Below, piece by piece: positions 4,034 to 56,820 of a DNA stretch of 64,000 bases. Source of the DNA: a virus; the IMG/VR virus record IMGVR_UViG_3300033150_001207, positions 20,204-84,203 of that record; one strand, given 5' to 3'. The notes under the pieces were generated by a model that made no database searches, was not told where the DNA came from, and saw only the letters and a list, made by a program, of their open reading frames with translations. The number at the start of each line of letters is the position of its first letter. Position 1 is the first letter of the stretch. The position numbers and the translations under genes were made by a program.

Positions 4034-4969
4034 ATGAAATTGAGTTACGATAACTACCTCGTTACCGGGGGTGCAGGATTTATTGGCAGCCATCTTGGCG
4101 AAGCAATAGTTAAACAGGGCAAGAAGCTAGTGATCCTTGATAACTTAATAACGGGAAAGAGAGAAAATTTAGAACCGTGGTGGGATGAACAGCTTTGTAC
4201 ATTTGTAGAAGCTGATATTAGCGACTATAATTCAATCCACCCATATTTTGATAGTGTTGATATTGTATTCCATAATGCCGCTTCCAAATGTACCGTATGC
4301 AGAAAAGCCCCAAATACTGATTTAATGGTCAATGCATGGGGTTCGTTAAATGTATTCAGAGCTTCGCAAAGTGCCGGGGTAAAGAAAGTTATTCATGCCT
4401 CCACTGGTTCTACGATGGAAGGTAATCCGAAATCATTCTATGGTGTAAGCAAGCTTGCGGCTGAAAATTACCTTGCTGTTATGCGAGAGTACCATCCCGA
4501 ATTTGTTTATTCTATATTGCGATATTACCATGTCTATGGAACTCGTCAGGATAATAGCGACGAAGGCGGCGTGATACCTATATTTATACGCAATGTTCTC
4601 AATAACGAACCTATTGTTATATTTGGCGACGGTAAACAGGTTAGGCATTTTACTACCGTCGAAGATGTTGTGAAAGCCAATTTATATGTATCCGAGGTAG
4701 ATGAATTTAGCTGGTATCCAGAATCGCCGCTTACTGTAGTATCAGATGTAAAGATTAGTATTTTAGATTTAGCACATTTAATATGTGAATTGATGGGTAA
4801 GCCAGATCATGAGATTATATTCAGACCAGAAAAACATGGTGATGTAAAAAACTTTGAATTTGTCAGAAGCTATAATCTTGATGAATTGGTACGGTTCAAC
4901 AATGACCTCGAAGGCGAGCTTAAAAAAGTGATAAACTGGTATAGAGAAAAATACAAATCAAGGCGATAA
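4034..4969 (+). CDS. NAD-dependent sugar epimerase/dehydratase (SDR family)
   Basis: A 311-residue extended short-chain dehydrogenase/reductase. Residues 11-20 give the Rossmann dinucleotide motif TGGAGFIGSH. The catalytic Tyr-x-x-x-Lys is Y136-GVS-K140. Other family patterns are VFHNAA, VYGTRQDNSDEGGVIPIFI and GDGKQVRHFTTVEDV. Such enzymes convert nucleotide sugars, for example UDP-glucose/galactose epimerases or dTDP-glucose dehydratases; the substrate cannot be read from sequence. It is the first of four sugar-related genes (to 8234) in the virion operon, so it probably makes the sugar used by the two glycosyltransferases downstream. RBS AGGGGA. Confidence 0.9.
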   Translation: MKLSYDNYLVTGGAGFIGSHLGEAIVKQGKKLVILDNLITGKRENLEPWWDEQLCTFVEADISDYNSIHPYFDSVDIVFHNAASKCTVCRKAPNTDLMVNAWGSLNVFRASQSAGVKKVIHASTGSTMEGNPKSFYGVSKLAAENYLAVMREYHPEFVYSILRYYHVYGTRQDNSDEGGVIPIFIRNVLNNEPIVIFGDGKQVRHFTTVEDVVKANLYVSEVDEFSWYPESPLTVVSDVKISILDLAHLICELMGKPDHEIIFRPEKHGDVKNFEFVRSYNLDELVRFNNDLEGELKKVINWYREKYKSRR

Positions 4970-4991
4970 AAAAACAATAGCGGGAAAAAGA

Positions 4992-6161
4992 ATGTCCGAC
5001 TTTTACTGGCGTAATAAAGTCTTCAAGAGCGAACTTGGAAAATCCGCATGGGTATATAAAATTATACCAAAAGAATTAACCGTGAGGAAAACCATTGAGC
5101 CTGGACTCATAGAACCGCTCACTGAACATTATTTAAAAACACCGTTTTATGAAGTCAATATTGTTCCATACCATGAAGCACAAACGCAAGAAGTGGCTGA
5201 TTTTGTTGCCAAAGGTTGCAAATCAAAAAATATAAGTAAACAAAAGTTCTCGAAACTGTACTACGAGACATTAAAAAGAGTTATAAAAGAGAACTGGGAA
5301 TCGGATAAGTTTCATGTGCTATTACAGTCATCTGGGTATGATTCACGTCTTATCTCCATGGCAATCAAAGACAATCATAAAGAACTTGGGGATAGATGGC
5401 TCGGTGATATAATAATAGTTGAGTCTGGTAGTGAATTCAAGCTATTTAAAAAAATAATGAAACATATGGATTGGAAGCCTTATCAGTATACGGTATATAA
5501 CAACGGTGATAATCCAGATTTGAACATAAATGAATATTACTCTGATAATTTCGATTTCAAAAAAGCATGGAAAAGATTGAATGGATACTCAAGCTATCCG
5601 ATGAATCAGTATGATTTGATTGTTGACTGGTTGTACGATACCAACATAATACCAGAAAACAGAGAGTATCAGGGTTGGTCTGGTTATGGTTCAAACGAGA
5701 CAACATTAGCAATTGCATGGAATATGGGTATTCCATGGTATTTCAGACATTATTATTATCACGGGTTATCGCATTTTCCGAGAGAGAACTGGGTATTTCC
5801 GTACTTGCATTTTGATATGCTGGATTTATTACAAACTTATGGGCAGAATTACGCAAAAGAAACATTTAGCAAAAGGGCTGGAATACCAGAATTGGTGCTT
5901 AATGAATTATTTCCTGAATTGCAAAAGATACCCAAAATGTATCTTGAAGATTTAGTGAACGCTGGATATAGGACAATTTCGGACAGCCTATTGGAACAGG
6001 TTAGCAAAGATTACTTTGCATCGTGGTATGGGAAAAACGTAAACCCGAATGTCAAACCACAGAAACAGATTGATTATTTATCATGGTGGGTTTGCTGGAG
6101 CATGGCGAGTTTTTGTGAGTATTTATTGGAAAACAATTACAACATATTAATAGGACAATAA
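4992..6161 (+). CDS. PP-loop-like protein, asparagine synthase-related
   Basis: A 389-residue protein. VLLQSSGYDSRLISMAI (about residues 109-125, core SSGYDSR at 113-119) resembles the SGGxDS pyrophosphate loop of asparagine synthase and related ATP pyrophosphatases that activate a carboxyl or sugar substrate. There is no N-terminal glutaminase Cys, so it would be an ammonia-dependent or partner-dependent amidotransferase-like enzyme, if active. The second Gly of SGG is replaced by Tyr. The C-terminal half is rich in Trp and Tyr. It sits between an epimerase and two glycosyltransferases, which suggests amide or amino modification of a sugar. The call rests on one motif plus context. Confidence 0.55.
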   Translation: MSDFYWRNKVFKSELGKSAWVYKIIPKELTVRKTIEPGLIEPLTEHYLKTPFYEVNIVPYHEAQTQEVADFVAKGCKSKNISKQKFSKLYYETLKRVIKENWESDKFHVLLQSSGYDSRLISMAIKDNHKELGDRWLGDIIIVESGSEFKLFKKIMKHMDWKPYQYTVYNNGDNPDLNINEYYSDNFDFKKAWKRLNGYSSYPMNQYDLIVDWLYDTNIIPENREYQGWSGYGSNETTLAIAWNMGIPWYFRHYYYHGLSHFPRENWVFPYLHFDMLDLLQTYGQNYAKETFSKRAGIPELVLNELFPELQKIPKMYLEDLVNAGYRTISDSLLEQVSKDYFASWYGKNVNPNVKPQKQIDYLSWWVCWSMASFCEYLLENNYNILIGQ

Positions 6162-6176
6162 CGCAGGGGAAAAATT

Positions 6177-7169
6177 ATGTTTGATGTATTAGCACTCTGT
6201 CAATTCGATTGGGCAAACACAGCTTATAAGTTTTGCCAGTGCTTACAAACACTGGGTATTAACGTAATCGGGTATAAGGGGCAACCTCATGAATTTAATT
6301 ATGTCAATCAGTTGCCTATTCATCTGGAACTTAATAAAGGTATAATTGGCAATAAACATCCGCTTGTCGTATTCGCACCCGGCATGAAAGGGCTTGTTGA
6401 AAAGGCCAAAGTTGTACATTTCTTTGCAAGTACATTTATTGAAACGGGTGTTGATTTATCAAATAAGAAAATAATTGCACAACATGGCGGTACAACTTAC
6501 AGGCTTGATCCAAAAGCAAGTAACGAGGTGTTCAATCCGATGGTTACTGCTACAATAATACAGTACCCAACGTTACTTAACAAGGGCGCAAAGAATGAAC
6601 ACTTAATTTATTATCCAGTTGATACCAATTTCATACAGCCAGATTTTGAACGCAAAGGCAAAAGTAAACTCATAGTGGGACATTTTCCGAGTACATGCGA
6701 TTCAAAAGGTACTGAAACCATTGTGAATGTAATGGACAAATTGAAGGACAAATTCGAGTATATAGGTGTACGCAAAGATATTCGCATCGATTGGTTGAAC
6801 AATCTCGAAAGGGTAAACAAATGCGACATATTAATAGAAACAATTAAGCCAGAGTTGATGGGAAAAGAATTTGGAAGCTGGGGAAATGCCTGCCTGGAAG
6901 CTGCCGCTCTCGGTAAAATAGTGATAACCAATGATAATTATCAAGATATATATAAACGGGAATATGGCAATTGGTTCGAGCCTATGATAGCCAATGACGG
7001 TGAACAACTCGAACAAAGATTACTCGAATTGTATGATTATATGGATAAAGAAATATTCCATAAGAAACAAGCATCACGGGAATGGGTAGTACAATGCCAT
7101 TCAATATCTGTTACTGCCGAACGCCTGTGGGATAAAGCTTATCAATATCTAAACATCGGGAGAAAATAA
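6177..7169 (+). CDS. Glycosyltransferase, GT4-like (first of two)
   Basis: A 330-residue GT-B fold candidate. The N-terminal half has AQHGGTTYRL, an acceptor-side segment. The C-terminal half has VGHFPSTCDSKGTETIV, the usual donor-domain opening, then GSWGNACLEAAALGKIVITND, in which the Glu and following Ala/Gly fit the donor-binding helix of family 4 glycosyltransferases. It would transfer a nucleotide sugar to an acceptor. The next gene starts immediately after its stop codon, so the two are translated together. RBS AGGGGAAAA. Confidence 0.75.
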   Translation: MFDVLALCQFDWANTAYKFCQCLQTLGINVIGYKGQPHEFNYVNQLPIHLELNKGIIGNKHPLVVFAPGMKGLVEKAKVVHFFASTFIETGVDLSNKKIIAQHGGTTYRLDPKASNEVFNPMVTATIIQYPTLLNKGAKNEHLIYYPVDTNFIQPDFERKGKSKLIVGHFPSTCDSKGTETIVNVMDKLKDKFEYIGVRKDIRIDWLNNLERVNKCDILIETIKPELMGKEFGSWGNACLEAAALGKIVITNDNYQDIYKREYGNWFEPMIANDGEQLEQRLLELYDYMDKEIFHKKQASREWVVQCHSISVTAERLWDKAYQYLNIGRK

Positions 7170-8234
7170 ATGAATGTAAAACCGAAAGTAACAATGATTA
7201 GCTTACATTGCTGCATAAGAGTTGTCAAAGAAGCAATAGCACTAAAGAATCATGGGTATGAGGTGCACGGAATACTCGGTGCATTGGCAATGCGTGATGT
7301 ATTCGATACAATCACCATATTTACGGATGGGGATAGTTTACAAAAAGCGGTTAAAGATTCAAATGCTGATATATTTCATGTGCATAATGAACCAGATTGG
7401 ATTGTACCATTAATAAAATACCCAGCGAAGAAAAAACCTATTATCTGGGATATGCACGACCCTGAACATTTACGTGATAACAATCCGAAACCAGAAGAAA
7501 CGACATCTGTCATGCTTGCGGATGGTATTGTACACGTAAGTGAACCATGTATGAAAGCACTACATAAAGCGTATGAATATAATAAACCAGAATGCGTAAT
7601 ACATTCAATGGTAAATGAAAAGTTTATGCCGCCAGATAATGCAATTATTCCAGACCCAAGTTTTAAATCAATTGTATATGAAGGGGGTATAGACGATACC
7701 GAAAAACCTGTTATAATCGGCGAAGACCCATCGGGTTCAGATAAAACGCTAGCCAGAGTAAATTTAAGATATATTATTGATATAGTAAAAGCTTTTTGTG
7801 TTTCTGGGTACAATTTTACAATTCTTTGTGCAAAGAATCTTAAAAATAATAATTATCAGAATGCAGGCGCTTTTGTTGTAAAACCAGTGCCATATGGTCA
7901 GATGTTGTTAGGTTTGCGTTCTCATGGATTAGGACTTAACGGTTCCCCATACAATTCAAGACTGTTGCAATATGCTTCACCGAATAAATTATGGGAATAT
8001 ATAAGTCAGGGTGTTGTGCCAGTGTGTTTTAATACAGACGAAAGTTTCAGACTTTGTGAACAGTATGATATCGGATTAAAGTTGACTTCACTTAACAATA
8101 TAGAAAGCCAGTTGACTGAAGCGCCGCAAAAACGAAAGAATCTGCTTAAAGTAAGAAAAGAATTCACAATGGAAAGTGAAATACCGAAGCTGATGAGGCT
8201 GTACGAAAAAGTATTGAGTAATGAAAAAACATAA
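7170..8234 (+). CDS. Glycosyltransferase, GT4-like (second of two)
   Basis: A 354-residue protein. IIWDMHDPEHLR (about residues 90-101) is typical of family 4 glycosyltransferase N-terminal domains. IVYEGGID opens the donor domain, and SPNKLWEYISQGVVPVCFN near residue 270 is the donor-site helix region. It probably acts with the preceding enzyme on the same glycan or on a virion protein. Start ATG abuts the upstream TAA, and the upstream GGGAG serves as RBS. The 8.3 kb small RNA candidate is transcribed from the other strand toward the 3' end of this gene. Confidence 0.8.
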   Translation: MNVKPKVTMISLHCCIRVVKEAIALKNHGYEVHGILGALAMRDVFDTITIFTDGDSLQKAVKDSNADIFHVHNEPDWIVPLIKYPAKKKPIIWDMHDPEHLRDNNPKPEETTSVMLADGIVHVSEPCMKALHKAYEYNKPECVIHSMVNEKFMPPDNAIIPDPSFKSIVYEGGIDDTEKPVIIGEDPSGSDKTLARVNLRYIIDIVKAFCVSGYNFTILCAKNLKNNNYQNAGAFVVKPVPYGQMLLGLRSHGLGLNGSPYNSRLLQYASPNKLWEYISQGVVPVCFNTDESFRLCEQYDIGLKLTSLNNIESQLTEAPQKRKNLLKVRKEFTMESEIPKLMRLYEKVLSNEKT

Positions 8235-8242
8235 TCCTTATA

Positions 8243-8326
8243 GTAAAACCACCCATTCCGTACGTTACGTACTCACCAATTGGGTGGGGAATAGGTGGCG
8301 TCCTGTGTGTTAGATAAAACCTAACG
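8243..8326 (-). ncRNA. Candidate small RNA with two hairpins and a U-tract
   Basis: Read on the minus strand, downstream of the promoter at 8333-8361. Hairpin 1 is GTTAG...CTAAC (8309-8325). Hairpin 2 pairs CCACCTATTCC with GGAATGGGTGG (arms 8288-8298 and 8249-8259), with one G-U pair, and is followed by UUUU, which makes it look like an intrinsic terminator. Inner repeats around GTACG-TAA-CGTAC can form a second small stem. A related sequence with the same promoter lies in the opposite orientation at 38022-38130. Hairpin 1 is kept by compensating changes (GTTAG/CTAAC here, GTTGG/CCAAC there). Expression is inferred. Confidence 0.55.
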
Positions 8327-8332
8327 AAAGTA

Positions 8333-8361
8333 AATATACACAATGCAAAGCAATAAGTCAA
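8333..8361 (-). promoter_or_regulatory. Sigma70-like promoter for the 8.3 kb small RNA
   Basis: On the minus strand: TTGACT (8356-8361), 17-base spacer, TATATT (8333-8338). The -10 is followed by a TACTTTCGTT stretch that is nearly shared with the 38 kb promoter (ACTTTCGTT after its TATATT). The conserved spacing and downstream sequence support a real promoter that points leftward, against the late genes. Confidence 0.6.
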
Positions 8362-8414
8362 TAAAAAATAATATGTTTGTTTTATTTAATTTTTATTAAC
8401 ACAAGGAGAAGAAA

Positions 8415-8873: not shown

Positions 8874-10079
8874 ATGAAAGATCCACGGGAAGAACAGGCA
8901 GAAGAAGCGGTAAAAAGAGGGGAAGAAATTCAAGCTAAACTTTATAATGTTAGCAAAGAGGAAACTGTCCCTGTAGAAGCTTCTAAATCTCAGGAAATTA
9001 AACCTGATGAGAAAAAGCCAGAAAAGCAAGCCGAGAAGTCTGGCAAAAAGAGTAAAGAGGGCATTGAGCCTACTCAGGAATCCAAATCTGGTAGTAAAAA
9101 ACCAGAGGAAGAAACCTGGAAAAGCAAGTTTGATACTTTGCAGGGTAAATATAATGCCGAGATTGCTAAACTCAAAGCCAGAGTAGAGGAAGCTGAAAAG
9201 AGAGCAAGTGAGTGGAGAGATACTGTTGCTGAGATAGGGAAGTATAAAGCTACCGAAGCAAAGCAACGGGAAAAACCAGAAAAAGTTCCAGAAATTAAAG
9301 CACCAAAGATTGATTCTGTTGTTGCGCAACCGCAAAAGCACGTTACTGATGAGGACCTAGAAGATTACGGTCCTGAGCAGTATAATTATGTCAAGCGTGT
9401 TGCTCAAGAGGTTGTCGATAACGCATTGTTCAATTTCAATAAGGCTATTGGCGATGTTATTGAGAAACGGTTCAATCAAATCGAGGGAAGAATTGCTCCT
9501 GTCGCTGATGATTTAAAAACCGTTAAAGCGACACAGGTAAAATCAAGGGAAGATAAATTCTGGGAGGATATAGATAGATTGTGTCCTGATTTACAGCAAT
9601 ATAACTATGATCCTGCTTTTAACGATTGGCTTGACCAACCGTCTGTTGAGGCTGGTTTTAAACGTAGAGAGTTGCTCAATGATGCTTTCTACAATCTTGA
9701 CGCTAACCGTGTTGCTCGACTTTTCAATGCATTTTTAAATAGTTCGCAAGTAAATAAACAGGTTACTACTCAGCCTGAAAGTGTTGCGGTGAGCGAACCT
9801 GTTACAGAGCAATCGGTAGCAGTTCCATCTGAGCCAGAGACACCAGTTGCTGGCAAACAAGTACCTACTGTAGACATTGAGGACTTGATTTCCCCGGGTG
9901 TGTCAAAAGCTGGGCAGTCAGCAATAGCTGTGGCAGAAAGCGATACCCCGCCTTTTAGTATAAAAACGTGGGAAAAAGCTAAGTCAGATTGGAATAATAA
10001 GAGAATATCTCTCGAAGACTACGAAAAGATTCATGCCGAGTTCGACGCCGCATTAAGGGAAGGAAGGGTAGTACCATAA
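8874..10079 (+). CDS. Scaffold / capsid assembly protein
   Basis: A 401-residue acidic and Lys-rich protein directly before the major capsid gene, the classic scaffold position. The N-terminal 130 residues are low-complexity (E, K, P, A) with a coiled coil near WKSKFDTLQGKYNAEIAKLKA. The C-terminus ends in a small helical segment (SWEKA-like TWEKAKSDWNNKRISLEDYEK) found at the end of many phage scaffolds, which binds the capsid protein. It directs procapsid assembly and is then released or degraded; no protease gene was seen nearby. RBS AAAGGAG. Confidence 0.8.
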   Translation: MKDPREEQAEEAVKRGEEIQAKLYNVSKEETVPVEASKSQEIKPDEKKPEKQAEKSGKKSKEGIEPTQESKSGSKKPEEETWKSKFDTLQGKYNAEIAKLKARVEEAEKRASEWRDTVAEIGKYKATEAKQREKPEKVPEIKAPKIDSVVAQPQKHVTDEDLEDYGPEQYNYVKRVAQEVVDNALFNFNKAIGDVIEKRFNQIEGRIAPVADDLKTVKATQVKSREDKFWEDIDRLCPDLQQYNYDPAFNDWLDQPSVEAGFKRRELLNDAFYNLDANRVARLFNAFLNSSQVNKQVTTQPESVAVSEPVTEQSVAVPSEPETPVAGKQVPTVDIEDLISPGVSKAGQSAIAVAESDTPPFSIKTWEKAKSDWNNKRISLEDYEKIHAEFDAALREGRVVP

Positions 10080-10098: not shown

Positions 10099-10734
10099 AT
10101 GGCTGTTTACAACCGAGCTCAGGGTATGCCAAATTATTCCGCAGATAGCGGTGGAAACTTTATTCCTGAACTGTGGGCGCCCCGTATGCAAATCAGGTTT
10201 TATAAAGCCAATGTATTCAGAGCTATTTCCAATAATAGTTATGAAGGAGAGATTAAGCAATTTGGCGACACGGTTCATATAAACACATATCCTGACATCG
10301 ACATTTTCGATTATGTTAAAGGTCAAAAACTTCCTATTCAAACACCAAGCTCCACTCCTTCAAGTCTTACTATCGATAAGGGTAAGGCTTTCAACTTTTT
10401 AGTTGATGATGTGGACAAGGTACAGTCAAGACCCGATCTCACAAAAGAGTTCGGTGATACTGCCGGGTTACAATTGGCAGAGGAAATAGACAAGGATGTT
10501 ATTCAAGGTGTTTATTCCGATGCTGATTCCGACAATGTTGGTGCGACTGCTGGTGCAGAATCAAATTCCTATGATATGGGTGCTGCGTCTGCATACGAAA
10601 GTCTCACCAAGACCACAATTCTTGACTATATCGTTGACATGGGTTCTATTTTGGATGAACAGAACGTTCCTAATGATGGCAAGCGCTGGGTTGTTTTTAC
10701 ACCCTGGGCTGCTGGACTCATTAGAAAATCGGAT
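10099..10734 (+). CDS. Major capsid protein, exon 1 (212 codons)
   Basis: N-terminal two thirds of the major capsid protein. Recognisable segments are FIPELWAPRMQIRFYKANVF near the N-terminus, FNFLVDDVDKVQSRPDL in the middle, and WVVFTPWAAGLIRKSD at the exon end, a pattern of many phage capsid proteins. The reading frame runs on 12 codons into intron sequence and stops, so without splicing the protein would lack its last 100 residues. The exon ends at GAT, and GGAT pairs with the intron's GTCC to give the U-G pair expected at a group I 5' splice site. RBS GAGGTTTAATA. Confidence 0.9.
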
Positions 10735-11661
10735 TCAAAAAGGGTCCCCTGCGTTAGTAATATCGCAGTGTAAATCAGGTGAATTGCTGGAATACTGAAA
10801 TGTAAATCAGCAGCCAAGCCCTTAAATGGGAAGGTCCAACGACTAATTCCTGAGTCTTAAAAAGTCTAAACTTTTATGTCGGAGACTTAAAATGAACAAA
10901 TATGATAGGGGAGTATTAATTGGTATGGCTCTTGGGGATGGATATATAAAAGTTAAAAGTGATGCTGATAGAATCAAAAAAAGAAACCCTTCGGCACAAA
11001 TGTCTTTTAGTCATAGCATAAAACAAAAAGAATATGCTCAATACAAAGTAGATAGATTGAATAAAATATTTGGTGGAAATGCTACTTTGAGAACTGGGGT
11101 ATATAAAAGTACAAACGGCGAAAGCTATAAAATATGTTATGCAAATAAGAGTAATCCATATTTTAAAGTGTTAAGAAGAATGCTTTATAAAAATGGTCAA
11201 AAATATATAACAAGGCATGTACTTAATATGTTAAATCCAGATGGTATTGCAATATGGTTTATGGATGATGGTAGCCGTAGGGCAAACAAGAATCTTGATG
11301 GTAAAATATCGTCAGTAGCTTTAACAATAAGTACGTGTTGTTCACGAGAAGAAGTTGACTCTATAATTGACTATTTTAATGAAATATATGGAATAGGGTT
11401 TAAACCAGCATTACACAAAAGAACTAGTTTATGGTCTGTAAGAGCCAATACATATGACTCGAAAATGTTGGCAAATCTTATAATGCCATATATGATTGAT
11501 TCTATGAAATACAAACTATCATTTGTTACAAAACTCAGGGAACACGAGCTCCTGAAGTCCAATAATCAGTTATATATTGTTGGATTATGAGATAGTCTAA
11601 ACTTACGGAAATAGAAACCGTAAGAAGTTTAGGATAAAGAGCCTAAACGGTAATAAAATTG
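10735..11661 (+). mobile_element. Group I self-splicing intron in the major capsid gene (927 bases)
   Basis: P1 is exon GGAT|TC paired with intron GGGTCC across an AAAAA loop, with a U-G pair at the cut. The core follows the group I plan: GAATTGCTGGAA and AATCAGCAGCCAAGC (P4/P6 region), CAACGACTA (P7 5' strand), then GAGATAGTC (P7 3' strand) after the endonuclease gene. P9-type hairpins TTACGG/CCGTAA and GTTTAGG/CCTAAAC follow. The last intron base is G11661, as expected for the terminal guanosine. The endonuclease gene sits in the loop between P7 5' and P7 3'. Joining 10734 to 11662 restores frame (codons GAT-CTG). Confidence 0.88.
10892..11590 (+). CDS. LAGLIDADG homing endonuclease inside the intron
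   Basis: A 232-residue protein with two LAGLIDADG-type motifs: VLIGMALGDGYIK (about residues 8-20) and IAIWFMDDGSRRA (about residue 115-127). Such enzymes cut intron-less alleles so that the intron is copied into them by repair. Start ATG follows a GGAG site. The gene is AT-rich compared with the flanking exons, a usual mark of a mobile endonuclease gene. Confidence 0.92.
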   Translation: MNKYDRGVLIGMALGDGYIKVKSDADRIKKRNPSAQMSFSHSIKQKEYAQYKVDRLNKIFGGNATLRTGVYKSTNGESYKICYANKSNPYFKVLRRMLYKNGQKYITRHVLNMLNPDGIAIWFMDDGSRRANKNLDGKISSVALTISTCCSREEVDSIIDYFNEIYGIGFKPALHKRTSLWSVRANTYDSKMLANLIMPYMIDSMKYKLSFVTKLREHELLKSNNQLYIVGL

Positions 11662-11964
11662 CTGAAAGATGTTTCCATGACTGGTGATACTGTATCACCG
11701 CTTCGTAATGGTAGAATCGGTATGATTAATAACATGAACATTCATGTTTCCAATAATGTACTTTCTACCACCGACGGTGGAACCACTGTCTGGTATATGC
11801 TTTTTGGTCATCCATTAGCGATTTCATTCGCAGAACAACTTGTCCAGACCCGTGCAATTCAGGCACCCGACACATTCGGATATTACATCAGTGGTCTCCA
11901 TGTTTATGGATACGACGTTGTTAAACCCGAAGCTTTAGGGTATCTGTATGCGGCGAAAGGCTAA
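11662..11964 (+). CDS. Major capsid protein, exon 2 (100 codons plus stop)
   Basis: C-terminal part of the capsid protein, starting LKDVSMTGDTVSPLRNG and ending LGYLYAAKG. GRIGMINNMNIHVSNNV and FAEQLVQTRAIQAPDTFGYYISGLHVYG are typical of phage capsid C-terminal domains. A TTG at 11659 could make it look like a separate gene, but it lacks a good ribosome binding site and the upstream exon needs it. Spliced product length would be 312 residues. Confidence 0.88.
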   Translation: MKDVSMTGDTVSPLRNGRIGMINNMNIHVSNNVLSTTDGGTTVWYMLFGHPLAISFAEQLVQTRAIQAPDTFGYYISGLHVYGYDVVKPEALGYLYAAKG

Positions 11965-15577: not shown

Positions 15578-18500
15578 ATGGCTGAAGAAGATTTAGTTAT
15601 ACAGCCCGACCAGACACCAGAACTCAGAACCGATATTCCGCAGGCACCGGATACTACTGTTGTAAATGGCGATATAGTGCCAAATTTGAGGACTGATATT
15701 CCGCAGGCGCCGGATACCGTGGTTACGGATAGCGACACGAAACCTACTTTGAATATTGATATACCGACAGCGCCAGATACGATAGTTACGGATACCGCGA
15801 TAACACCAAAGCTTGATACAGAGTTTCCGACTGCCCCCGATACAGTTGTTACAGTACCAGATTCAGTACCCCAGCTTTCTCAGGAATTTCCAGTCGCTGA
15901 CGATATACCATTGGAACGTGCTGAGTTTTCGTTCGCAAGAGGTAGATGGTTACCCAAGGGTGATGCACTGACAATCGGCGAGGAAAATTTCAGTGAGCTT
16001 GAGAACTTCAGGTATACCGATTTTGGACTGGAGGGTGTTGGTGGATTTACGAGGTTAAATGGTAATTACAAAATCGCTACTAGTATAGAAAACGGTATAC
16101 AGCTCACTACCAATTACAGTGCTGCGCCTTCTTATGTAATTGTGCAGTCTGGCGAGAGCCCTAAAAATTATTATTACTATACTGATGCTATTCCCAATGC
16201 TGTAAGTGGTGCTGCCACTGCATTGCACAGTGGGGTAGCGGGTAACTCTACTGCAAGATTTTCAAAATTGCCCAATGGGCATATTGGAATATGCGACGGG
16301 AAGGAAAATTTAATATGGGCAGGCGAACAAATGCCTGTTGGAGCATTTTTGGTAGCAGATATCGTTGATGGTACTATAGCCTATTTTCCTCAGATGGTTG
16401 ATGATGACCACATACAAGATTTTACAAATATAATCAATAATACGTTGAATGATTCAAATAATTATGTAGACTTAAACTATGTAACAACGGCATTTGGAGA
16501 TGATAGTTCTACGGTTACAGTCGCTAATACTTCTGGTAATATTATGAGATATACCGATAATGAAGTTGTTGACCATCATTGTGATTTTGTTACCAATGGA
16601 TTAGCTGTTGGACATGCTATAGTAGTAAAAAAAGGCGGTCCGTTTGGTGGTACAAATGAAGGTATGTTTAAAGTTACTGCAGTTGCGGAAACTTATTTTG
16701 AGGTAGAAAATCCTGATGGTGCTCTTGAGGGACCGGTAACTCTGACTGCTGATGCAATACGAACATGGGGAAAAAGAATATTAATAGGTACTACAAGAAG
16801 AGCAAGGGGATTTACTTTTGATATAGAAACAGCTAATACAAAATCTGCAACTTTAACGGAAATATATGTTATTGCTCCAACGACAGGGGCATTTACAGGA
16901 ATAACCACTGGGGCTTCGGTAATTACTGATGGTACTGAAGTTGGCGGGAAAACTATGGCTCAAAGTGGTAGTGTTACGTGGACTGATCCTGAAATAGACG
17001 AAGTAAAAACATTCTTTAAGGGATATTATTTATACTGGTATTTATTAGGAATAAGCGATTGTAATGCCAATATTGCCAATGTTACGGCAAAATGTGATGT
17101 TCAAAGCTTATCCGATATATGGGATGGAGTTTATAGAAAACCTATTTTATGTAAATACTATGACGATGATAATACTCCCTCGGTAAGAGATTATACACTT
17201 GAAATCAACACAAAAACCCCGATTACACAGCAGACAAATACTGACATTGACCCATATACTGTACCGATACAGAATATGGAACCTAAAATTGACTATTTGA
17301 CTGTTATGTTTGAAGAACCAATTAGGGCTTCAATTATTAATCTATACACTTATAAAACTGGTAATTCAGCAACACAAGACGGAACTGTAAATGTTAGATA
17401 CAATGTTGGTGATACGTGGTGTAATGTTAGAAGAATAATAAGGGATTCCACCGCGGTTCCCGGCTATAACCAGGGTGGATATGCTATTGGTGATTTCAGA
17501 AATCACACACAATTCCTGCCATTTTATAGAAGTGGTGTAATTCAGTGGCGGATAGACCCTACTCAAGTTGCACCAGAAAGAAGTGTAACTATAGATGGAA
17601 TTACAGGTTATGCATACAAATTCGTTACAGAAACTACAAAAATAACTGGCGATGTACAAATAGACACGATAGATGGTATTCCTGATCTACCAGAAATAGA
17701 TACGTTATACATATTCCCATTCCAATACAAGAACCGAGCTATGTGGTGCGGTGCTATATCAGACAATGAGAAGAATCGTGTAGATTATAGTAAAACCAAT
17801 ACCGTAGATGTATATAATGGTATGGATGCAAGCGGGTTTCATCACGAACGTTCGTTGTATTTTGGCGATCACCGCGCGCTTACAGGTGCTATTGAACTGT
17901 TTAATCAATATGGTGATACCGTGGAATCGATAGCTTTGTTCTTCAAAGATACCGAAACGTATATGCTTACTGGTTACAATCCAGAAACATTTAAGATACA
18001 TAGAATATCAAATTCTATTGGTTGCCCAGCGCCTTTGACTATTACTTCTGCCGAGGTATCACTTAAAGTTGAAGATGCGCCCGCTCAGAATATTGCATTA
18101 TGGTTGAGTGATAAAGGACCGAAAATGTATATTAATAATACTATACGTAGTATAAAAGGCGTCGAGAATTATTTCCAGCAAAGCGAAACAGAGGCAATAA
18201 ACACATCGTATTTTAGCATATGCAGGGCATGGTTCAATTCAGACTATCAAGAATGGAACTTGCTTATACCTTCTGGTTCTGGACAAACTACCATAAATAC
18301 ATGGTTAGTATACGATTTAATACGCGACAGATGGTATAAAAACACACCGACAGACGATTTTCCAGAAGGTGCATTCCCAGTTGTAGACACTAATGGGTTA
18401 TCATATAATTATGGATACACTACCGATAACGGTGGTGTATTATTACGCATGGAAAATGGACTTAAATGGGGCGACACCGATGATATAGAAAACAAAGTAA

Positions 18501-38021: not shown

Positions 38022-38050
38022 TTGACATATTACAACACTTATAGTATATT
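38022..38050 (+). promoter_or_regulatory. Sigma70-like promoter for the lysis region
   Basis: TTGACA (38022-38027), spacer 17, TATATT (38045-38050). Same -35/-10 and the same downstream ACTTTCGTT as the minus-strand promoter at 8333-8361. It points toward the lysozyme and holin genes. Confidence 0.65.
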
Positions 38051-38056
38051 ACTTTC

Positions 38057-38130
38057 GTTGGTCTTCCAACACACGACATGCCACCCACCCCTACCCCATT
38101 GATTGGTACGTACAATCGGGATGGGTGGCA
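38057..38130 (+). ncRNA. Structured leader RNA, partner of the 8.3 kb small RNA
   Basis: Hairpin 1: GTTGG-TCTT-CCAAC (38057-38070). Hairpin 2: GCCACCCACCCC (38080-38091) with GGGATGGGTGGC (38118-38129), one C-A mismatch; an inner GATTG...CAATC stem holds GTACGTAC. It has no U-tract, unlike the 8.3 kb copy. It ends 31 bases before the next start, so it may be the untranslated leader of that operon. Similarity to 8243-8326 on the opposite strand is clear by eye. Confidence 0.55.
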
Positions 38131-38161: not shown

Positions 38162-38374
38162 GTGGCAAGGAAAAAATTATGGATACAGGACGCTATCAAA
38201 GCAGAAGGTAGTTTAACGAGGTCTGCAAGAGCATCTAACGCATTAAAGAAAGATGGAACTATTAAAGTATCATGGTTACGAGAACAGGCGAAAAAGGGTA
38301 ATTCAACCATTGCCAAGCGTGCAAGATTGGCGCTAACCTTGAGAAAAATGCCCAAAAGAGGTAGAAAAAAATAA
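38162..38374 (+). CDS. Small basic protein, phage-type
   Basis: A 70-residue GTG-start protein behind AGAGGTGA. It resembles the short Lys/Arg-rich phage proteins ending in RLALTLRKM(P)KRG, and starts KKLWIQDAIK. First gene of the transcript from the 38.0 kb promoter. Possibly a regulator or small virion protein. Confidence 0.55.
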   Translation: MARKKLWIQDAIKAEGSLTRSARASNALKKDGTIKVSWLREQAKKGNSTIAKRARLALTLRKMPKRGRKK

Positions 38375-38393: not shown

Positions 38394-38594
38394 ATGAAAG
38401 AGCAATTTTCAGAAGGCGATAAAGTTCACATAACGCTCAAAGGTATAGTTGTAGAACTTGATGAAGGATATTATACCAAGGAATACAGCGAAGATTGTCA
38501 ATGGTATAATGTGTATGTACCAGAAATAGATGATGTTGTTACGGTATCAACTTCTAATGACGGCGGAAATATAAAACTTGAAAAAAGAGATTGA
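38394..38594 (+). CDS. Hypothetical small protein
   Basis: A 66-residue acidic beta-rich protein (GDKVHITLKGIVVELDEGY...YVPEIDDVVTVS), like a small SH3-type or DUF fold. RBS is weak. Unrecognised. Confidence 0.5.
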   Translation: MKEQFSEGDKVHITLKGIVVELDEGYYTKEYSEDCQWYNVYVPEIDDVVTVSTSNDGGNIKLEKRD

Positions 38595-38617
38595 TAAACC
38601 AGAGGGAAAACGAAGAA

Positions 38618-39064
38618 ATGAATAATAATCCTGGATTAATATCTCGTGTAGGTTTGGAAATAATAAAAGAACATGAGGGTTTTAGGCAATATCCGTATAA
38701 ATGCAGTGCAAATAAAACTACAATAGGCTACGGGCACAACCTTGATGATAGAGGTATTTCTAAAAAAATAGCAGAGATGATATTCAAAGAAGATATAAAC
38801 GTTGCCATCGATGACGTATTTGAAATATTTCCCGATTTCCATAAGTTCACCGAGAACCAGAAAATTGTACTTGTTGACATGATGTTCAATCTCGGTATAA
38901 TTCGCTTCAGAAAATTCAGAAAAATGATAAGAGCAATAAAAAAGGGTGATTGGAAAAAGGCGATTATCGAAATGAGAAATTCACGATGGTATTCTCAAGT
39001 AACAAATCGGGTAGAGGACTTGATTGATTTGCTAGAGGAAGACTTGCAAGAAACGGAGAGTTAA
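38618..39064 (+). CDS. Endolysin, T4-type lysozyme (GH24)
   Basis: A 148-residue enzyme that cleaves the peptidoglycan sugar backbone for release of progeny. The motif EHEGFRQYPYKCSANKTTIGYGH carries the catalytic Glu (E20). Where T4 lysozyme has the catalytic Asp there is Cys29 (YKC), and T35 follows, so an E-C-T triad seems present in place of E-D-T; such triads are known in some phage lysozymes. ATG at 38618 is preferred to an in-frame TTG at 38591. The next gene starts right after its stop. Confidence 0.88.
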   Translation: MNNNPGLISRVGLEIIKEHEGFRQYPYKCSANKTTIGYGHNLDDRGISKKIAEMIFKEDINVAIDDVFEIFPDFHKFTENQKIVLVDMMFNLGIIRFRKFRKMIRAIKKGDWKKAIIEMRNSRWYSQVTNRVEDLIDLLEEDLQETES

Positions 39065-45064: not shown

Positions 45065-45142
45065 TCAAATTCCTTCGTGGCTTTCCAATTTTTCTGCTTC
45101 TGTGTTTACATAAGGTTTTCTTTCTGGAGTTGTTCCTTGCAT
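45065..45142 (-). pseudogene. Truncated copy of the start of the 56762 gene
   Basis: Encodes MQGTTPERKPYVNTEAEKLE... (25 residues), matching MQGTTPERKPYVSTEVERLE... at 56762. The upstream GAGGTAATTACA and start ATG are also shared, so both the RBS and the coding head were copied. After about 20 codons similarity ends and it stops. An apparent gene-head duplicate. Confidence 0.7.
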
Positions 45143-45268
45143 TGTAATTACCTCCCTCAATTAAAACTATATTTCTTTCACGGTCTCAAGGAAAGGAGCT
45201 TTTATAAATTCCTTTCAAATCGAATAGAATCACATAAGCAAACTATTTTGGGCTTTTTCATCTCATTC

Positions 45269-56489: not shown

Positions 56490-56762
56490 TCAAAGTTCGC
56501 ATCTTCTAACTATATCATTAATCATACCCGTGCAAAAGCACACATCCTCTACAATTTTGCTAAGTTTCTTTGATAACACAACATTTTCAGCACGCTCATC
56601 TTCTAAAACTTTTTCAACCGGTTCATTGTCTTCTTGTATTAAAACTTCAAATAACCTCTGTTCTAAAGCTTCAATAGAATCACGTAGCTCACCAACATAC
56701 TTTTCAAGCCTTTCAACTTCTGTGCTTACATAAGGTTTTCTTTCTGGAGTTGTTCCTTGCAT
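56490..56762 (-). CDS. Small coiled-coil protein
   Basis: A 90-residue protein from ATG 56762 (GAGGTAATTACA in front; same RBS and start as the 45065-45142 copy). Coiled-coil segments RLEKYVGELRDSIEALEQRLFE and AENVVLSKKLSKI. Function unknown. Confidence 0.55.
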   Translation of the reverse strand: MQGTTPERKPYVSTEVERLEKYVGELRDSIEALEQRLFEVLIQEDNEPVEKVLEDERAENVVLSKKLSKIVEDVCFCTGMINDIVRRCEL

Positions 56763-56820
56763 TGTAATTACCTCTGTTGAATTGTTTTTCATGTCAGTAT
56801 TAAAGGTTCTTCTTTAACGT

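Follow-up and report, generated by a model that had tools for sequence, protein, structure and literature searches.

A repeated sigma-70-type promoter and two-hairpin element, possibly a transcript leader, in the genome of an uncultured phage

Results

Genome context and copies of the element

The window analysed here, a stretch of 64,000 nucleotides, comprises bases 20204-84203 of an 84,203-base IMG/VR virus record (IMGVR_UViG_3300033150_001207) with a G+C content of 37%. The ends of this record overlap, its first and last 114 bases being identical, which makes a complete genome of ~84.1 kb most likely; the phage genome is therefore probably complete, although it is classed as linear. Its portal, capsid and terminase genes tie the record to phages of Rhizobium, Roseobacter and Pelagibacter (24-33% identity for the portal by tblastn, and 40% for the N-terminal part of the capsid protein), and both portal and capsid are podophage-like rather than T4-like. 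The nearest phage relative found is a 37 kb contig whose portal is 56% identical. Late genes lie on the plus strand, from position 1 to 42.5 kb of the window, and early genes are mostly on the minus strand. Between the portal and capsid genes there is a block of sugar genes, which encode an epimerase/dehydratase, two unknown products and a glycosyltransferase; the annotation of Rhizobium phage RHph_TM3_14A shows no sugar genes at this place.

Next to this block, wholly inside the gap at 8235-8414, lies the first copy of the element studied here (copy A; Table 1). The initial annotation had described it as a minus-strand promoter followed by two hairpins and UUUU, and had reported a plus-strand copy at 38.0 kb (copy B) with the same 17-nt promoter spacing. 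We recovered both at the same coordinates and with the same layout. That the element is present twice holds for these two opposite copies, but profile and covariance searches also identified a partial third, copy C, outside the window.

Table 1. Positions of the element copies and neighbouring features (window coordinates unless marked as record).
Feature	Position	Strand	Details
Sugar-gene block	4034-8234		between portal and capsid
Glycosyltransferase ORF	7170-8234		neighbour of copy A
Copy A, whole element	8361-8245	minus	
Copy A, promoter	8333-8361	minus	TTGACT 8361-8356, 17 nt, TATATT 8338-8333
Copy A, hairpin 1	8309-8325	minus	GTTAG-GTTTTAT-CTAAC; first base is the predicted +1, from spacing
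Copy A, linker between hairpins	8300-8308	minus	
Copy A, hairpin 2	8248-8299	minus	GC-rich, GCCACC...GGGTGGT; then TTTT 8248-8245
Copy B, whole element	38022-38130	plus	
Copy B, promoter	38022-38050	plus	TTGACA 38022-38027, 17 nt, TATATT 38045-38050
Copy B, hairpin 1	38057-38070	plus	GTTGG-TCTT-CCAAC; first base is the predicted +1
Copy B, hairpin 2	38079-38130	plus	TGCCACCC...GGGTGGCA; no T-run behind
70-aa ORF, Fusello_VP2-like	38162-38374	plus	directly 3' of copy B; ribosome site AGAGGTG
Lysozyme	38591-39064	plus	after the VP2-like ORF
Repeat-rich region	record 5500-7230		1.7 kb, largely non-coding; holds copy C
Copy C	record 6005-6076	plus	outside the window

Copies A and B are ~71% identical over 113-114 nt (blastn-short), and each finds the other in nhmmer searches within the 84.2 kb record (E = 7.3e-7 for A against B and 2.8e-7 for B against A), while copy A finds copy C with E = 9e-6. 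A shared peptide coded by A and B was considered and rejected, since the two copies are separated by frame-breaking indels of 1, 3, 1 and 1 nt. The repeated element is real and statistically solid, and its promoter is well supported.

The element begins with a member of a strict promoter class

The 84.2 kb record contains 9 exact matches to TTGACA-N17-TATATT (10 if the TTGACT variant of copy A is counted), where 0.14 would be expected in second-order Markov sequence. Exact boxes with a spacer of 15, 16, 18 or 19 nt were absent from the record. Most of these promoters lie in front of genes, several of the 9 exact copies directly preceding ORFs with ribosome sites, and the nearest relative carries five exact copies, one of which leads into a hairpin and T-run. 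The excess over expectation, the fixed spacer and the copies in the relative together argue that the phage very probably has a sigma-70-type promoter class of its own, of which copies A and B are members. If so, it provides testable start sites in both phages, members of an uncultured group.

The two boxes and the 17-nt distance between them are conserved between A and B, whereas the sequence of the spacer is not (8/17 positions). Behind the -10 box both copies have the discriminator ACTTTC, preceded by one additional T in copy A (TACTTTC), and hairpin 1 begins 6-7 nt past the box in each. This common discriminator and spacing suggest that the RNA starts at the first base of hairpin 1.

Two further members of the class on the minus strand of the record lead into apparently non-coding sequence: the promoter at record 10366 is followed by what looks like a structured RNA, with a hairpin plus TTTTTTT after ~50 nt, and the one at record 17817 by strong hairpins, heading antisense towards ORF 17038-17610. 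In the nearest relative, a gap between genes (15886-16010) contains TTGACA-17-TATATT, then a hairpin and TTTTT, a unit that is likely to be a terminated small RNA and that the model built from copies A, B and C does not match. On a relative phage contig, a short stretch on the minus strand (9116-9254) matches tmRNA in Rfam (59 bits, E 6.6e-21); ARAGORN finds no tmRNA there.

Structure of the predicted RNA

For both copies the predicted fold is better than that of shuffled sequence (z -4.4 for copy A and -3.5 for copy B). Although 6/32 stem positions differ between them, 16/16 pairs are still possible, an outcome with a frequency of 0.002 under a simulated null that is biased in favour of this result because the structure was derived from the same sequences. 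The initial annotation held that hairpin 1 had been preserved by paired changes. There is indeed a true double change from A-U to G-C (GTTAG/CTAAC versus GTTGG/CCAAC), but it is the only one in this hairpin and the only robust one in the element, hairpin 2 having at most one, depending on the alignment. When covariation was assessed over all three sequences, 155/500 shuffles did as well; with so few sequences, covariation taken alone is little proof.

Likewise, the two copies do not have quite the same two hairpins, as had been proposed: hairpin 1 and the base of hairpin 2 are common to A and B, but the tops of hairpin 2 fold differently. The sequence GTACGTA is common to both copies while the RNA tops differ. 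The predicted A:B cofold has an energy of -64.2 kcal/mol. Folded separately, the two copies give -32.1 and -31.7, a total that lies only 0.4 higher, so that no A:B hybrid is clearly favoured.

The three copies have different surroundings

Copy A is intergenic, contains no ORF and leads into no gene. The sequence 3' of its second hairpin is UUUUACUAU, read in the RNA as UUUU and then ACUAU. A consensus terminator scan calls no terminator at copy A, the hairpin and UUUU falling below threshold, and we regard the copy A terminator as weak. The likely RNA stops before it reaches the glycosyltransferase stop codon, at a distance of ~10 nt. It is therefore not antisense to the end of that gene, as had been suggested, unless transcription reads through.

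At copy B there is no U-run. Instead, the GTG start of the VP2-like ORF lies ~30 nt past hairpin 2, and the lysozyme gene follows. Given the missing U-run, the ribosome site and the VP2-like/lysozyme operon behind it, copy B is best read as the 5' leader of a lysis-region mRNA. A terminated transcript, which the initial annotation proposed for copy A, is not supported by either context, copy A having a weak U-run that the scan does not call and copy B reading into a gene; the small-RNA part of the initial view is plausible for copy A only.

Copy C retains a hairpin 1 identical to that of copy A, together with the C-rich 5' arm of hairpin 2, and is without the promoter and the 3' arm of hairpin 2. 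The region that holds it is crowded with direct and inverted repeats, among them the iteron-like TAGTCTACWGTAGA, TATAAATATTTACAC and GCGAGNNCTGTCGTA, and resembles a replication origin, for which we consider it a candidate. Copy C may be a relic; alternatively, it may indicate that the core of the element works without a promoter. On the opposite strand, all three copies have several G-runs.

Searches for homologues and targets

Outside this phage no homologue was found in the viral, phage and plasmid collections searched, and the idea of a wider small-RNA family was not borne out. Exact two-part patterns were run against 2.9 million viral contigs and in one scan of bacterial genomes without recovering a homologue, the pattern matches in viral and genome contigs looking like coding or unrelated sequence. 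One candidate, a 46 kb contig from the nearest relative's sample, has TTGACT-17-TATATT-TG-ACTTTCGTT in common with the element but shares no detectable proteins with the phage, and was set aside as a chance match.

Below E 0.1, a profile search over 315 loci (3.3 Mb) returned nothing but the copies of this phage itself. The covariance model, built with copy C included, gave a single chance-level match (E 0.59) over 50 phage records, the search in related phages that had been put forward as a check, and none in a second run over two records (G053 and G001, the latter being the nearest relative described above). None of the 160 loci collected from portal and capsid alignments has the element, scans with the lysozyme and 401-aa gene proteins yielded no usable relatives, and blastn against phage and plasmid records gave chance-level matches alone. 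Rfam has no match at the gathering cut-off and, at E up to 10, nothing relevant beyond microRNA and CRISPR-repeat noise. The element is not a widespread family; most of the related records searched were fragments and distant, so that absence from them is not proof. A search for complementary sites had also been put forward as a check, and the linker was compared with the start-codon regions of 131 ORFs, where its pairing was not clearly better than that of shuffled linkers.

Discussion

Our preferred explanation, which we hold with about even confidence, is that a phage-specific sigma-70 promoter-leader cassette underwent duplication inside a single genome. Host RNA polymerase would read TTGACA-17-TATATT and initiate exactly where hairpin 1 begins. 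The transcript would then open with a stem-loop at its 5' terminus, continue through a short unpaired linker and enter a second stem that is long and GC-rich. At copy B the cassette would serve as the 5' leader of the VP2-like/lysozyme mRNA, with the stem-loop most likely shielding the end of the message and the second stem governing translation or processing. In copy A the leader would be freed as an ~80-nt RNA or as a longer, leaky transcript, and copy C, in non-coding DNA that resembles an origin, would be a relic, either decayed or reduced to the core.

Stem-loops at the 5' end are known to stabilise mRNAs, as in the E. coli ompA leader, and for a stem-loop at +1 the simplest effect would be to protect the 5' end. 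The predicted transcripts resemble such leaders in having a hairpin at their very 5' end and differ from them in the long second stem that follows. If transcribed, the element would constitute a compact RNA module of the phage, one for which no relative has been described, and copy B would control or protect the lysis-region mRNA. Two observations stand against the promoter-leader reading, namely that copy A leads nowhere and that hairpin 2 does not keep its structure at the top, and it is further weakened by copy C, which keeps the core without the promoter and second stem, an arrangement that this reading does not predict.

An alternative is that copy A is a trans-acting small RNA, a terminated regulator of ~80 nt that pairs with other RNAs or titrates a factor, possibly involving the copy B leader. 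Like the phage small regulatory RNAs reviewed in PMC12197685, copy A is a short intergenic unit without an ORF, and it has its own promoter and a stable hairpin followed by UUUU. The unit at record 10366 (-) and the one at 15886 in the nearest relative, where a promoter of the same class meets a hairpin and a run of seven or five T residues, make short transcripts plausible in this phage group. Those known RNAs differ from the cassette, for which we see no target, no clear terminator and a sister copy that is mRNA-leader-like; with the terminator under the scan threshold, the linker pairing not clearly better than shuffled sequence and no homologue found in the relatives searched, we consider the small-RNA reading unlikely.

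Somewhat less probable still, in our judgement, is that the conserved core acts as DNA, as a protein-binding site or a site of replication or recombination, with the hairpins being incidental. The persistence of hairpin 1 and the C-rich tract in copy C, amid 1.7 kb of repeat-rich DNA and with neither promoter nor second arm, would fit such a site, as would the shared G-runs and the retention of GTACGTA in A and B despite their differing RNA tops. The conservation of the -35 and -10 boxes at an exact distance of 17 nt, with a spacer matching at only 8/17 positions, points instead to transcription, and the differences in the stems are compensated.

A more elaborate scheme, in which the element would represent a new class of phage two-hairpin RNA, would have one factor, be it a phage RNA-binding protein or the RNA polymerase of the host, recognise the module in all three copies, so that copy A titrates the factor as a free small RNA, copy B presents the module in the lysis-operon leader and copy C near the origin, coupling the timing of lysis to replication; we regard this as a long shot.

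The plan of the element also recalls the put sites of phage HK022, which are ~70 nt long, form two stem-loops and lie downstream of promoters in two copies (PMC9378689). By analogy with putL and putR, the nascent two-hairpin RNA would bind RNA polymerase in cis and cause terminator read-through. The likeness of plan extends to the length of ~70-80 nt, the position 3' of sigma-70 promoters and the two related copies in opposite orientation within one phage, and copy B precedes a multi-gene operon. Copy A faces no gene and has ~14 kb of antisense late genes ahead of it, where antitermination makes little sense; the linker, at 8-9 nt, is longer than in put, and the Rfam search returned nothing relevant. 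We therefore think put-like antitermination improbable.

Least probable of all is that the copies are recombination cassettes like the PeSLs (promoter early stem-loop), which join a promoter to a stem-loop terminator, left behind at swapped gene blocks, with copy A at the edge of an inserted sugar-gene block. A PeSL cassette needs an effective terminator, and the terminator here is weak in copy A and absent from copy B. The element does join a strong sigma-70 promoter to a stem-loop at repeated intergenic places in one phage, much as PeSLs do, and the lack of annotated sugar genes in RHph_TM3_14A puts copy A at the edge of a likely insertion; but the copies number just 2-3, whereas PeSLs are described as dense where shuffling occurs, at 71% identity and inverted they are poor substrates for exchange, and the portal and capsid are podophage-like, PeSLs being known from T4-like phages in the work cited in PMC4503421.

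Two other features of the genome may be recorded here. The major capsid gene (window 10099-11964) is split into an N-terminal part at 10099-10773 and a C-terminal part from ~11659, with a LAGLIDADG endonuclease ORF at 10892-11590 between them; this has the appearance of an intron or a comparable insertion carrying a homing endonuclease, for which Rfam gives no group I intron match. In the early region, a 73-nt direct repeat with 90% identity is found at window positions 45082-45154 and 56702-56774.
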